Positions 19,435 to 22,892 of a DNA stretch of 64,000 nt are shown in pieces. The first letter of the stretch is position 1. Each line of letters begins with the position of its first letter. The position numbers were made by a program, and so were the translations under genes. Location: the NCBI RefSeq assembly GCF_918698245.1, contig NZ_CAKKMS010000001.1, positions 558,001 to 622,000 of the forward strand, written 5' to 3'. This DNA comes from Pedobacter sp. Bi126. GTDB taxonomy: Bacteria > Bacteroidota > Bacteroidia > Sphingobacteriales > Sphingobacteriaceae. The notes under the pieces were generated by a model that was not told the DNA's origin, did no database searches, and saw only the letters and a program-made list of their open reading frames with translations.

Positions 19435-20346
19435 CTAATTCTTTTCGCTAAGTTCTTTAATATGATGCATTACGCGTAAATGTACATTTCTGGTAATACT
19501 TTCTGCCCATAAATCATAATACCAAATTGGGAATACCTTTAAGCTATACCAGCTGTTCCCAACAAGAGTGGTGGTTCCATCACCATTATCTTTCAATAAA
19601 AACTGACCTCTTTCAATATCAATATGTCCCATAATTTCAGGATCTTTAGGCTGCCCGGTAATATCGAATGTTAAATCCTTGTTGACATCAAAAGTTACAA
19701 TCTTTTCATCAAAAACATATCCATTGCTAAAAATACATTTTCTTCCTGCACCTTTTTTATAAGCGGTAACAGTAGTTTGCATGGGGCTTGGCATCCCCGC
19801 TTTGAAAAGCCAATAGGTATCTGCCTGTTTGATCTTCTCAAACGCAACAACATTCTTCCAAATTTTTTCTGGTGCTGCTTTGACTATTATTTCATCACTT
19901 ACCATGTTGCTATAATGATGGTCAGAAATGGAATCAACGGTAAAAATCACGAGTAATATGGAAACGATACTTACATTTAAAGTTTGGTTATTTTTCCTGA
20001 ACATTGTTTTACCAATAAATGCCCCAGTGATTACAAAAGCAAAAATAAGCGGCGAAACAATAATTAAACAAATTGTTCCCTCTCCCAAAAAGATATAGCT
20101 TAAAAGAATAGCAAGGAGACCATTTAAAATTGAATACCAGATGAGCAATTTACTTTTCAGATTCAGATTTCTCCAAAACCAGGAGCTGATTACCCCCATC
20201 AAAAGCGGTAAAATAACAAATTCTGAAAACACTAAAATACCATCCTTTTCACTATGAAGCCAATTATTTAACCAGATAATGATTAAGACGATTACATTTG
20301 AGATAATGATCCCTTGAAGTAATTTTGATTGGAGAAACGTTTTCAT
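19435..20346 (-). CDS. Membrane protein with C-terminal SRPBCC domain
   Basis: The 303-residue protein has about five hydrophobic helices in residues 10-145 and then a soluble START/SRPBCC-like domain (from about 152) beginning DEIIVKAAPEKIWKNVV, the typical first strand and helix of polyketide-cyclase/Bet v1 folds. SRPBCC domains bind hydrophobic ligands. The helix count is an estimate. A good promoter lies immediately upstream, and the DUF5519 gene follows within 2 bases, so both are expressed together. The ligand is unknown. Confidence 0.75.
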   Translation of the reverse strand: MKTFLQSKLLQGIIISNVIVLIIIWLNNWLHSEKDGILVFSEFVILPLLMGVISSWFWRNLNLKSKLLIWYSILNGLLAILLSYIFLGEGTICLIIVSPLIFAFVITGAFIGKTMFRKNNQTLNVSIVSILLVIFTVDSISDHHYSNMVSDEIIVKAAPEKIWKNVVAFEKIKQADTYWLFKAGMPSPMQTTVTAYKKGAGRKCIFSNGYVFDEKIVTFDVNKDLTFDITGQPKDPEIMGHIDIERGQFLLKDNGDGTTTLVGNSWYSLKVFPIWYYDLWAESITRNVHLRVMHHIKELSEKN

Positions 20347-20486: not shown

Positions 20487-21176
20487 CCAGGAGTTTCTTT
20501 ATACATCTTGGCGATGTTAATGATGCGTATTAACACTAGCCCACAGAAGACCTTATAGCATGGAAACAGGCTGTTTAAACAACTGTTATGCTTTAATGAA
20601 ATCCTAAGAGAAACATTGCGTTTACTTGTTATTAGTTAATTTATAATCTATTGCTAGATCAATTTGAGCACTTTTCCCTATGGAAAGTTGCTAGGAAGTT
20701 CAACGAGTACTGACTCTCCCTTCTTCTGTATAAATCAACTAATTTATAGTGGTGAATTAATTAGCGTAATAACCTAAACTAGTGGTGGTGATTAGTTAGG
20801 CCGTTCCTGATACCCCGGCAACTTATTGACTGAAATACATGACCACCATAATATTCTATCAAAAGGCCCCGGGGTACCAGGATTTTTAAATAAGAATATC
20901 TTAATGAAAACCTTTAACAGGTGATCCGTATCTTAGCTTATATTAGCGGCAACAGCAGTTATACTGATCTGAACAAATGATCAGGGAATATGGCTGAGGT
21001 TGTCTGCGGAGTTTCATATTGAACGTAAATTTGCTAGTGAATTATTTTATTTTTTTGTAAAAGTATAAATTTCGTTCAATTTAAACAAGTAGTACTATAG
21101 ACTTTATAGACTTTATTTTTAAATAATTGATTTACAGAGAAATAATTTATAATTCAAGAAAGTATGATAAACGAAT
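20487..21176. other. Non-coding stretch with a large inverted repeat
   Basis: No credible ORF occurs here on either strand. The notable structure is a 14-bp inverted repeat, TCCTGATACCCCGG (20805-20818) and CCGGGGTACCAGGA (20869-20882), one mismatch, 50-base loop, with a nested TGGTGGTGA / TGACCACCA pairing across part of it. The rest is AT-rich. It could be a structured RNA or decayed DNA following the orphan leader at 20428. Confidence 0.4.
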
Positions 21177-21563: not shown

Positions 21564-21770
21564 CTTCGGCGGCGGTGAGCCGAGGCAAGATCGTGACGTA
21601 TGGCAAAAGACATCAATTGTACGTCACTCATGTTGATTTTAAACATTTAATTAACCCTAAGGATGACAGATTAAAGACTAAAAGTCAATACATTAACCAA
21701 CAGAATAAAAATTAAATATCACGACATTGCAAAAAACTACTATTTCTATAGAAATTATAGTAATTATTTT

Positions 21771-21778
21771 TACTTTTG
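21771..21778 (+). promoter_or_regulatory. Possible -7 box ahead of the tRNA-like/SAM-I transcript
   Basis: TACTTTTG matches TAnnTTTG and lies about 50 bases before the tRNA-like element. No good TTTG is found 19-21 bases upstream, so this is only half a promoter. Confidence 0.35.
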
Positions 21779-21827
21779 CTAAGTCTTCTTCAAAAAGTGA
21801 ATCTAAAGCTGCTTGAAAAGATCATAT

Positions 21828-21898
21828 AGTCATGTGGCCGAGTGGTTAGGTAAAGGTCTGCAAAACCTAGTACGGCGGTTCGATTCCGTCCATGACGT
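21828..21898 (+). tRNA. tRNA-Cys(GCA)-like element, partly degenerate
   Basis: The sequence folds as a tRNA: acceptor GTCATG (21829-21834) with CATGAC (21891-21896), D-arm GCC...GGT, anticodon loop CTGCAAA with anticodon GCA at 21860-21862, and a T-arm GGCGG-TTCGATT-CCGTC. Departures from a healthy tRNA are an unpaired 1:72 position (A:G), an unpaired 27:43 position (A:A) and no encoded CCA (the 3' flank reads TCT). It may be functional or a decaying copy. It ends only 5 bases before a SAM-I riboswitch, which is unusual. Confidence 0.65.
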
Positions 21899-21903
21899 CT
21901 AAT

Positions 21904-22000
21904 ACTTATCAAGAAAGACGTAGGGAATGGCCCTTTGATGTCTTAGCAACCTGTTGATTAACAAGGTGCTAATTCCTTCTGCAATGGCAGAAAGATGAGT
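21904..22000 (+). ncRNA. SAM-I (S-box) riboswitch aptamer
   Basis: All four helices of the SAM-I aptamer can be drawn. P1 pairs ACTTATC (21904-21910) with GATGAGT (21994-22000). P2 pairs AAGAC with GTCTT around the conserved GGGAATGGCCC segment. P3 is ACCTGTT...AACAAGGT. P4 is TTCTGC-AATG-GCAGAA. The invariant AGCAACC and GGTGCTAATTCC segments are present. S-box RNAs switch off sulfur/methionine genes when S-adenosylmethionine is plentiful. No classical methionine gene follows; the next reading frames are a 59-residue ORF at 22081 and the DUF4833 gene. I did not find an obvious terminator in the 80-base expression platform, so control may act on translation. Confidence 0.9.
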
Positions 22001-22080
22001 TTGAAAGCAGATCCCTATACTGTTTTCGGCGAACGATCAATGGCTATCCCTTCCAAAATTGGTAACCTAAATTTAATAAT

Positions 22081-22260
22081 ATGTCAGTTTATTTTGATTA
22101 TCCATCCATCAGGGATTTTTTCGAGATCCACGGAAACACTTCTTGCGAAAAATTAGATGATTATGAACATTGTAAGGCAGAATCAGACCGGCTTTATAAT
22201 GAACAACTTAATGAGATCAATGAAGAAATTCCACATGATCAACCCAAAACCGGCACATAA
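22081..22260 (+). CDS. 59-residue protein behind a SAM-I riboswitch
   Basis: An ATG at 22081 opens 59 codons ending TAA 22258-22260. The product is soluble and acidic (MSVYFDYPSIRDFFEIHG at the start, then a charged helix KLDDYEHCKAESDRLYNEQL), with two cysteines and no signal peptide or membrane helix. I do not recognise it. It begins 81 bases after the riboswitch aptamer and ends 50 bases before DUF4833, so it is probably the first regulated gene. An overlapping 38-codon frame from ATG 22040 is a weaker alternative, as it has less protein-like composition. Confidence 0.55.
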   Translation: MSVYFDYPSIRDFFEIHGNTSCEKLDDYEHCKAESDRLYNEQLNEINEEIPHDQPKTGT

Positions 22261-22310
22261 AAAATATTCAAACCTTTAGTTTAAACGCTCTTTTAAATAA
22301 CAAGCCTAAA

Positions 22311-22892
22311 ATGTATTCAACACCTCCCAGACTACCCATTTTACTCAAAACCTTATTCACTATAGTTTTAATCTTTTTCCTCTTTTCGACCCAAGCAAGG
22401 GCACAATCGAAAGATCCTTCCCCTATCAGTTTTCCTACGCCTAGAAATGTAGATCACATGTTATTTTATCTTCAACGTGACCCGAATACCAATACCCTGA
22501 TCTATGCACTAAACCTGAAAGAAAATGGCAGCATTAATGCTAATGCGCCTATTCAGGTTTATTGGATCCGCTATGGTGAAAAAGGACAGAAAAAAGACCT
22601 AGGCTACATCCAAAGGAAGTTTGCATATGGTATCGATACGAAGGAATTGGGGTCAGATAAATATGAATTCAGGTTTGTATCGCATAAAAAACTTCCTTTT
22701 TATCTACAGAAGTATAGTGATAAAAGCTATCACGTTTCGGTAACCCTAAATAACCGGACCGTCAGGGTTACGCGCTTGTTTATCAGGATACAGGGTGGCA
22801 GTTTCTGGCTTCCGAATGTAAAATATGCGGAAGTGGAAGGCACAGAAGAATCGACAGGCAAACCAGTAGTGGAACGGATAAGTGTGAAGTAA
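22311..22892 (+). CDS. Secreted DUF4833 protein
   Basis: The 193-residue protein has a signal peptide (hydrophobic LFTIVLIFFLFSTQARAQ, cleavage near residue 33) and the DUF4833 core: MLFYLQRDPNTNTLIYALNL (residues 45-64 region), PIQVYWIRYGEKG and DLGYIQRKFAYGI, then a beta-rich C-terminal half. The family has no known activity; a small beta-sandwich in the periplasm is likely. It lies 50 bases after the 59-residue ORF and downstream of the SAM-I riboswitch on the same strand with no visible promoter between. Methionine- or sulfur-linked expression is therefore an inference worth testing. Confidence 0.8.
   Translation: MYSTPPRLPILLKTLFTIVLIFFLFSTQARAQSKDPSPISFPTPRNVDHMLFYLQRDPNTNTLIYALNLKENGSINANAPIQVYWIRYGEKGQKKDLGYIQRKFAYGIDTKELGSDKYEFRFVSHKKLPFYLQKYSDKSYHVSVTLNNRTVRVTRLFIRIQGGSFWLPNVKYAEVEGTEESTGKPVVERISVK

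Follow-up and report, generated by a model that had tools for sequence, protein, structure and literature searches.

A tRNA-Cys with a conserved first-pair mismatch precedes a SAM-I riboswitch in a putative sulfur-regulon transcription unit of Pedobacter

The 64-kb window analysed here, that is, the whole stretch of Pedobacter DNA under study, contains a tRNA-Cys gene located directly upstream of a SAM-I riboswitch and a small open reading frame (ORF). We interpret this locus as one putative sulfur-regulon transcription unit that combines a specialised second tRNA-Cys with a small protein gated by SAM-I, and assign this reading a probability of roughly 0.6. The interpretation draws on computed properties of the locus: its conservation, an operator motif that it has in common with other loci, just one −7 element, an ORF that bears the signature of coding sequence, an intact aptamer and the presence of a normal tRNA-Cys elsewhere in the genome.

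Results

A tRNA-Cys and a SAM-I aptamer in tandem

The genome to which the window belongs comprises 6.29 Mb in 22 contigs. ARAGORN called a single tRNA in the window, a tRNA-Cys(gca) (Table 1). According to a scan of the window with Rfam, RF00005 (21828-21898, 51.9 bits against a gathering score of 29) and RF00162 (21903-22001, 84.1 bits against 44.4) were the only families above threshold, and no match to the T-box family was found. These calls, of the kind that the original prediction had proposed as a check, bear out its description of a canonical SAM-I aptamer directly after a tRNA-Cys on the same, plus, strand. The gap of 5 bases that it had given did not stand: the two elements are separated by 3 nt when measured from the end of the ARAGORN call and by 4 nt from the end of the Rfam match. 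The irregularities it had noted in the tRNA were present, namely the A1:G72 mismatch, a further one at A27:A43, and the absence of CCA from the gene. With A1:G72, the acceptor stem is not fully paired over its 7 bp.

Table 1. Features of the tandem locus and its surroundings (window coordinates)
Feature	Position	Strand	Evidence
Operator-like palindrome ACTACTATTTCTATAGAAATTATAGTAATT	21736..21765	+	Best window match of 19-column motif
Predicted Bacteroidota −7 promoter element TACTTTTG (TAnnTTTG)	21771..21778	+	Single TAnnTTTG, 17/17 tandem loci
tRNA-Cys (GCA), second copy, conserved A1:G72 mismatch and U73	21828..21899	+	ARAGORN; RF00005, 51.9 bits
SAM-I riboswitch aptamer	21903..22001	+	RF00162, 84.1 bits; 17/17 tandem loci
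Conserved hairpin, starting at last aptamer base	22001..22029	+	RNAalifold, 17 loci
59-codon small ORF MSVYFDYPSIRDFF...	22081..22260	+	17/17 tandem loci; pN/pS 0.10
DUF4833 protein, N-terminal hydrophobic stretch	22311..22892	+	PF16117, E 1.1e-48
Second, divergent SAM-I-like element (neighbour), 5' of ORF 19435-20346 (−)	20638..20736	−	RF00162, 44.4 bits, at threshold

The tandem recurs within the genus

The tandem was also found in related genomes, where the original prediction had suggested looking for it. In a BLAST search, positions 21800-22310 of the window were matched through both tRNA and aptamer, in the same order, in 17 of 145 genomes of the genus, its own included. RF00005 and RF00162 were both above threshold in all 17 tandem loci, with spacers of 3-24 nt between tRNA and SAM-I. 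Across these 17 species, the tRNA exists as three sequence variants (9, 6 and 2 loci), of which the rarer are one or two positions away from the commonest, and the flanks are variable. Recurring in 17 of 145 genomes, the tandem of tRNA-Cys and SAM-I is more than a chance arrangement.

We also scanned one genome per species from 84,980 species, short contigs excluded, for a tRNA T-arm followed by SAM-I. At least 12 loci were returned, ten from Pedobacter/Sphingobacteriaceae with tRNA-Cys and two from Oceanirhabdus; the number is a lower bound because the scan pattern was strict and accepted exact matches only. In the Oceanirhabdus loci (L104 and L107), SAM-I lies 25 nt 3' of the last tRNA-Tyr of an ordinary tRNA-Tyr/Thr array and is probably an ordinary neighbour. 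A search of plasmids with the tandem as query yielded nine records. Two match the tRNA part alone (a Pedobacter plasmid, 83.8% over query positions 7-74, and a Legionella record) and seven match essentially the SAM-I part; as no record reached 80% coverage of the query, a plasmid copy of the whole tandem was rejected. On the Pedobacter plasmid pA27BH1 (L287), a sequence with 84% identity to part of the window tRNA is located near a DNA cytosine methyltransferase gene.

The original prediction had associated a pseudogene with loss of the tRNA from relatives that keep the riboswitch. The distribution fits no simple scheme of this kind: the closest SAM-I loci fetched serve another gene, and in G010 and G075 the tRNA occurs without SAM-I but with a relative of the small ORF behind it.

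The A1:G72 tRNA-Cys is a conserved paralog

A canonical tRNA-Cys, with a G1:C72 pair and an encoded CCA, is present in the same genome (C5:91738-91808, 61.7 bits), and non-tandem copies of the A1:G72 tRNA, away from SAM-I, exist in other members of the genus. The pattern A1, G2, C71, G72, U73, C74 was detected in 93 of 399 genomes of the family: 70 of the 105 from the genus itself, and 18, 4 and 1 from three other genera, designated g14, g18 and g7, respectively. All but one of these 105 genomes (104) matched the G1:C72 tRNA-Cys pattern, as did 235 of the 399 family genomes in total; at least four of the matches listed outside the genus are visibly not tRNAs.

Because the first of these patterns itself demands A1:G72, the mismatch was tallied on loci located by BLAST, comprising the 17 tandem loci, 12 others and 18 more; the canonical gene (L156) was left out. 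A1:G72 was present in 46 of these 47 relatives of the window tRNA, a set in which similarity searching still confers a mild bias toward the mismatch. The exception, L158 of G048, has the paired G1:C72 form, and its operator motif, described below, scores 5.8 bits. When copies from all sources were pooled, A1:G72 was found in 91 of 92, a figure to which many copies contribute that had been retrieved with a pattern demanding the mismatch. In these 92 copies, pair 5:68 is AT in 71 and GC in 21, while pair 6:67 is TA in 56, CG in 13, GC in 3, AT in 1, TG in 2 and TT in 17. The acceptor stem covaries at 5:68 and 6:67, then, while its first pair does not form. The anticodon is CAU in place of GCA in 9 of the 92 copies, and two further copies with CAU and A73 (L164 and L165) were not called by ARAGORN. 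In one g14 genome (L086, G178), two copies of the A1:G72 tRNA-Cys stand in tandem, ~50 nt apart.

These data bear on the strongest alternative to our reading, in which the tRNA is an ordinary isodecoder for UGU and UGC, boosted together with sulfur assimilation, and its promoter is incidentally common with a gene controlled by SAM-I. A GCA anticodon and U73 are the main determinants for CysRS. The window tRNA carries both, and U73 was present in all 83 GCA copies collected, many of which were fetched by a pattern requiring it; since GCA and U73 are kept, the tRNA could simply decode. The good pairing of stem positions 2-7, with covariation at 5:68 and 6:67, is likewise in keeping with decoding, as is the fact that many A1:G72 copies are solitary, and that a terminator-like hairpin follows some of these. 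By contrast, a conserved A1:G72 mismatch is unexpected in an elongator, the same tRNA body occurs with a CAU anticodon, the stem has an additional U6:U67 mismatch in 17 of the 92 copies, and a canonical tRNA-Cys is already present. On balance, we regard an ordinary isodecoder as unlikely, though deserving of serious consideration.

A common operator-like motif and a single predicted promoter

Using EM, we derived a 34-column operator motif from 48 non-redundant regions upstream of non-tandem A1:G72 copies, 47 from the genus and one (L076, G382) from g14; the window tandem was excluded. Scores above 11 bits were obtained for 43 of the 48 training regions. Among the five low-scoring regions, two have a 20.8-bit site further upstream, before another ORF, and one has a 16.5-bit site almost 500 nt upstream. 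The window tandem scored 24.1 bits, a value reached by none of 400 shuffles. When the promoter part of the motif was removed, the best site of the remaining 19-column operator part on either strand of the window was at 21736 (19.6 bits), and the same motif was present in all 17 tandem loci (12.3-19.9 bits). In a control of 55 regions upstream of other tRNA genes, the highest score was 11.7 bits and the next 5.7 bits.

Without retraining, the motif had a site (6.6-30.4 bits) before each of 22 non-tandem SAM-I loci fetched from other genus members, which had been picked for likeness to the window's aptamer. Twenty of these sites beat all 400 shuffles, and the remaining two beat 399 and 398. In 21 of the 22 loci the downstream gene starts like a cysteine desulfurase; one of these genes, compared with NCBIfam, best matched TIGR03402 at 357.8 bits, which is under the cut-off of 530.75. 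In the window's own genome, four other SAM-I loci lacked the motif, and a fifth (L006) was left out of the scoring.

The tandem-type operator consensus occurred at 11 places in that genome, corresponding to nine distinct sites, as compared to two in a reversed control. Sites with three mismatches precede a siroheme-type methyltransferase gene, a NIR_SIR (nitrite/sulfite reductase) gene that lies beside an Rrf2 gene, and another SAM-I locus; a site with two mismatches precedes the genome's second copy of the small ORF. For two of the nine sites (L183, inside an ORF, and L185), a link to sulfur was not visible. A 29-column operator pattern for the same genome was dropped, with 3 matches against 4 in the control. 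By motif alone, the operator is common to sulfur-metabolism genes, and we read its sites as a putative sulfur regulon; Rrf2, which is simply the neighbour of one of them, is the leading candidate for a regulator. The sulfur theme by which the original prediction had connected the tRNA and SAM-I is, given an operator motif common to sulfur loci, stronger than it had supposed.

Neighbouring genes of a sulfur type were also read, with no control set of neighbours, around A1:G72 tRNAs of the other genera. In three translated loci of g14 (L072, L079 and L084), of which 18 genomes have the tRNA, it lies 3' of a peroxiredoxin gene on the same strand; the L072 protein has AhpC-TSA and 1-cysPrx_C domains. 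In the g7 locus (L071) the tRNA is located between O-acetylhomoserine sulfhydrylase and peroxiredoxin genes, and in two g18 loci (L129 and L130) it follows a YeiH-like gene (PF03601; TIGR00698 under cut-off). Elsewhere, L113 of G045 contains, at 2030-2325, a divergent pair made up of a SAM-I riboswitch and, 125 nt away, an A1:G72 tRNA with the CAU anticodon; a single palindrome between them seems to account for both scored operator sites, one on each strand. In the window's own genome, four loci (L177, L181, L186 and L005) have short leader ORFs with CCC (poly-cysteine) codons, either downstream of operator sites or downstream of SAM-I before an O-acetylhomoserine-sulfhydrylase-like gene.

The TAnnTTTG element in the window matches what we take to be the Bacteroidota −7 consensus, and transcription is predicted to start at about 21784. 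Exactly one TAnnTTTG was present between −120 and the aptamer region in each of the 17 tandem loci, at −55 to −60 from the tRNA, and a T-run of 5 or more was absent from the 40 nt 3' of the tRNA in all 17. Because a second TAnnTTTG and such a T-run are both lacking, separate transcription of tRNA and riboswitch was rejected; separate promoters, which the original prediction had considered, are thus unlikely by sequence. The tRNA, SAM-I and the small ORF are predicted to lie on one transcript.

Folded by itself, the window's leader has a minimum-energy structure in which parts of the tRNA pair with downstream sequence and both the acceptor stem and P1 are lost. Both modules appear in the consensus fold of the 17 sequences calculated with RNAalifold, which contains no tRNA-aptamer pairing. 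The conserved hairpin that follows the aptamer has nine pairs, standard wherever both sides have letters, seven of which show more than one standard pair type. A short U run is present in its 3' arm, a clear terminator was not seen, and the conserved ORF then follows; the hairpin may represent the SAM-I expression platform.

The small ORF and its neighbours

The small ORF is present in all 17 tandem loci, where it comprises 59-78 codons and starts with MSVYFDYPSIRDFF or a close variant. Over its first 44 codons, pS is 0.43 and pN is 0.045. The resulting ratio of 0.10 indicates purifying selection and is the mark of a translated protein. The ORF matched no family in Pfam or NCBIfam. AlphaFold predicted three helices for the 59-residue product (mean pLDDT 59.7, pTM 0.34), but the model was of too little confidence to search for similar folds. 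With a profile of the ORF, matches at E values of 0.1 or less were obtained in 60 of the 145 genus genomes, and all 17 tandem genomes have two copies each.

The DUF4833 gene is possibly in the same operon as the small ORF. The SAM-I-like element on the opposite strand was found in the search of the whole genome and was absent from the list of the window scan; its counterpart scores 52-55 bits in 11 of the 17 tandem loci. A terminator-like hairpin lies between this element and the next gene.

Related units contain degenerate tRNA-like elements

In a second type of the small ORF, the operator lies mostly 72-78 nt 5' of the ATG, and a degenerate tRNA-like element usually begins 4-10 nt 3' of the stop codon (23 in L248). 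Hairpins follow this element, and after them come 33 near-invariant nucleotides and a terminator-like hairpin; the tRNA-like element and the tail were present in 49 of 53 loci examined. The anticodon loop TTTCATAAA is kept in 43 of 48 distinct elements, the exceptions being two with UAU, one with CGU, one other and one deletion, and the element of L062 has a long insertion in this loop. Because the anticodon may be changed, lost or interrupted by an insertion, and the acceptor stem has a bulged A, the degenerate CAU-type element is unlikely to decode. One such unit in the window's own genome (L179, C2:891625-892065) comprises an operator, a 53-aa ORF, a degenerate CAU tRNA-like element, the 33-nt tail and a terminator-like hairpin, and has the appearance of a small RNA with two functions that belongs to the sulfur regulon. 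At L179, Rfam also names Flavo-1, on the opposite strand some 400 nt past the tail.

A covariance model of the tail, R1, whose calibrated structure omits the hairpins near its 5' end, detected matches in 50 of the 399 family genomes, all from the genus itself (50/105). Three R1 hits overlap or directly follow the 3' ends of A1:G72 tRNAs, in G063 and G051 (GCA) and in G100 (CAU). R1 was clear in two of 32 sources searched (L067 of G063 and L118 of G100) and is not general among tRNA-Cys copies; a looser tail-like motif, allowing up to 7 edits, follows many of them.

Other combinations of these modules were found. In G036, G140 and G124, the small ORF is followed by the CAU-type element and then by the A1:G72 tRNA-Cys; an operator was seen in G036 and G140, and the G124 stretch is too short to show one. 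The A1:G72 tRNA-Cys of G010 and G075 has a relative of the small ORF behind it and no SAM-I in between; the G075 relative is a profile match over 26 residues (E 2.1e-5) with a different start. Based on these recurrent co-occurrences, the window unit is therefore one arrangement of an operator, a tRNA or tRNA-like element and a small ORF, and the placement of SAM-I between tRNA and small ORF characterizes one clade of the recurrent set.

Such arrangements are relevant to a further alternative, in which the tRNA-like module is a sensor in the leader, for instance by binding CysRS or another tRNA-binding protein, and forms with SAM-I a two-input RNA switch that acts on the small ORF in cis. The persistence of tRNA and small-ORF relative together in the two genomes without SAM-I is consistent with this possibility. 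So is the tolerance of anticodon change, loss and insertion in the element that lies ~4-10 nt beyond the related ORF. However, when flanks were read, many A1:G72 tRNA genes had no adjoining small ORF, the spacer to the aptamer ranges from 3 to 24 nt, and tRNA-aptamer pairing is missing from the consensus fold, though it occurs in the single-sequence fold. We therefore judge a two-input switch to be improbable.

Discussion

The least credible explanation of the tandem, a decayed tRNA gene or a chance neighbour, would accommodate the 1:72 and 27:43 mismatches and the lower score of the window tRNA relative to the canonical gene (51.9 against 61.7 bits), but this option, raised in part by the original prediction, and the pseudogene reading with it, was rejected because the mismatch is conserved in 46 of 47 BLAST-located relatives, the adjacent stem covaries at 5:68 and 6:67, a normal tRNA-Cys is encoded elsewhere, three near-identical variants occur in 17 species despite variable flanks, and promoter and operator are conserved.

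In the favoured reading, one sulfur-regulon unit with a specialised tRNA-Cys and a SAM-I-gated small protein, the inferred parts are that the elements are co-transcribed, in which direction regulation runs, which regulator acts, how the RNA is processed and what the tRNA does. A sulfur-responsive operator and promoter (about 21736-21778) would start a transcript that carries the specialised tRNA-Cys as its 5' module, then SAM-I, the 59-aa ORF and perhaps the DUF4833 gene. Low sulfur would release the operator, and the whole transcript, tRNA module included, would be made. Because the tRNA module is first on the transcript, it would be produced whatever the SAM level, and SAM bound to the riboswitch would gate the downstream ORF(s) only. 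RNase P and RNase Z would probably free the tRNA module from the transcript. Once released, it is probably a conditionally made, non-bulk tRNA-Cys that serves as a sensor, a buffer or a dedicated Cys donor, and not as a housekeeping decoder. Its role could be that of a conditional isodecoder, of a Cys donor that shuns ordinary use through its weak first pair, or of a regulatory mimic; the decoy and the processing signal named by the original prediction are also possible. The locus suggests that a tRNA-shaped RNA was recruited into sulfur control.

The tRNA and SAM-I are both of known kinds, and there is a real chance that they belong to a new family of sulfur RNAs. In its fullest form, which we put forward tentatively and at somewhat less than even odds, this proposal envisages an undescribed family of sulfur-starvation RNAs in Pedobacter and relatives. 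A tRNA-like module whose anticodon loop is of the Cys (GCA) or Met (CAU) type would be coupled to an MS(I/V)YFxYPxI small protein and, in many species, to the near-invariant 33-nt tail and a terminator. The modules would have functions other than decoding: they might, for instance, occupy or sense the machinery for Cys/Met charging, or protect and process the RNA; in the window's clade, SAM-I would lie between tRNA and ORF, and the operator and SAM would together set the output. If the reading of the locus is correct, sulfur sensing at two levels, by an operator and by SAM, is joined to a cysteine tRNA within one RNA. The locus would also provide a natural case of a tRNA with an unpaired first pair that is kept genus-wide and in other genera of the family, and it would define small proteins and tRNA-like RNAs of a new family, open to direct testing in harmless soil bacteria.

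Several features of the locus resemble known systems. As in other SAM-I (S-box, RF00162) leaders, a complete aptamer of 84 bits lies 5' of an ORF; here, by contrast, a tRNA precedes it in the same predicted transcript, and the ORF is of an unknown family and is not a met or cys gene. An unpaired 1:72 is a mark of initiator tRNAs. The window tRNA has the weak or unpaired 1:72 of this type, but its A1:G72 is combined with a Cys anticodon and there is no sign of initiation. Dutka 1993, as cited in PMC10192219, concerns the part that the 1:72 pair plays in peptidyl-tRNA hydrolase activity.

In mycobacteria, poly-cysteine leader-peptide attenuators tie cysteine supply to downstream genes (Canestrari 2020, as conveyed in PMC9031893). 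They resemble the CCC leader ORFs at other operator sites of the window's genome; they differ from the window locus, which has no visible poly-Cys leader and carries a tRNA instead. Among Pedobacter motifs, Pedo-repair (RF01715) is listed in PMC2864571, and no match to it was reported in the loci scanned. In the window and the tandem loci, Rfam 15 named no family beyond tRNA and SAM, and the open-access literature searched, to which most subscription papers do not belong, contained no account of a tRNA adjoining a SAM riboswitch, nor any of this RNA family.

The closest described case that we found is tRNA-Other of Bacillus cereus, a pseudo-tRNA within a larger Fur/iron-regulated RNA for which a non-translational role was proposed (PMC3399842). 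In both cases, a tRNA-shaped element is contained in a larger, metabolically regulated RNA. The window tRNA differs from tRNA-Other in being conserved across its genus and three other genera of the family, in its sulfur context and Cys anticodon, and in being joined to a riboswitch and a small protein.
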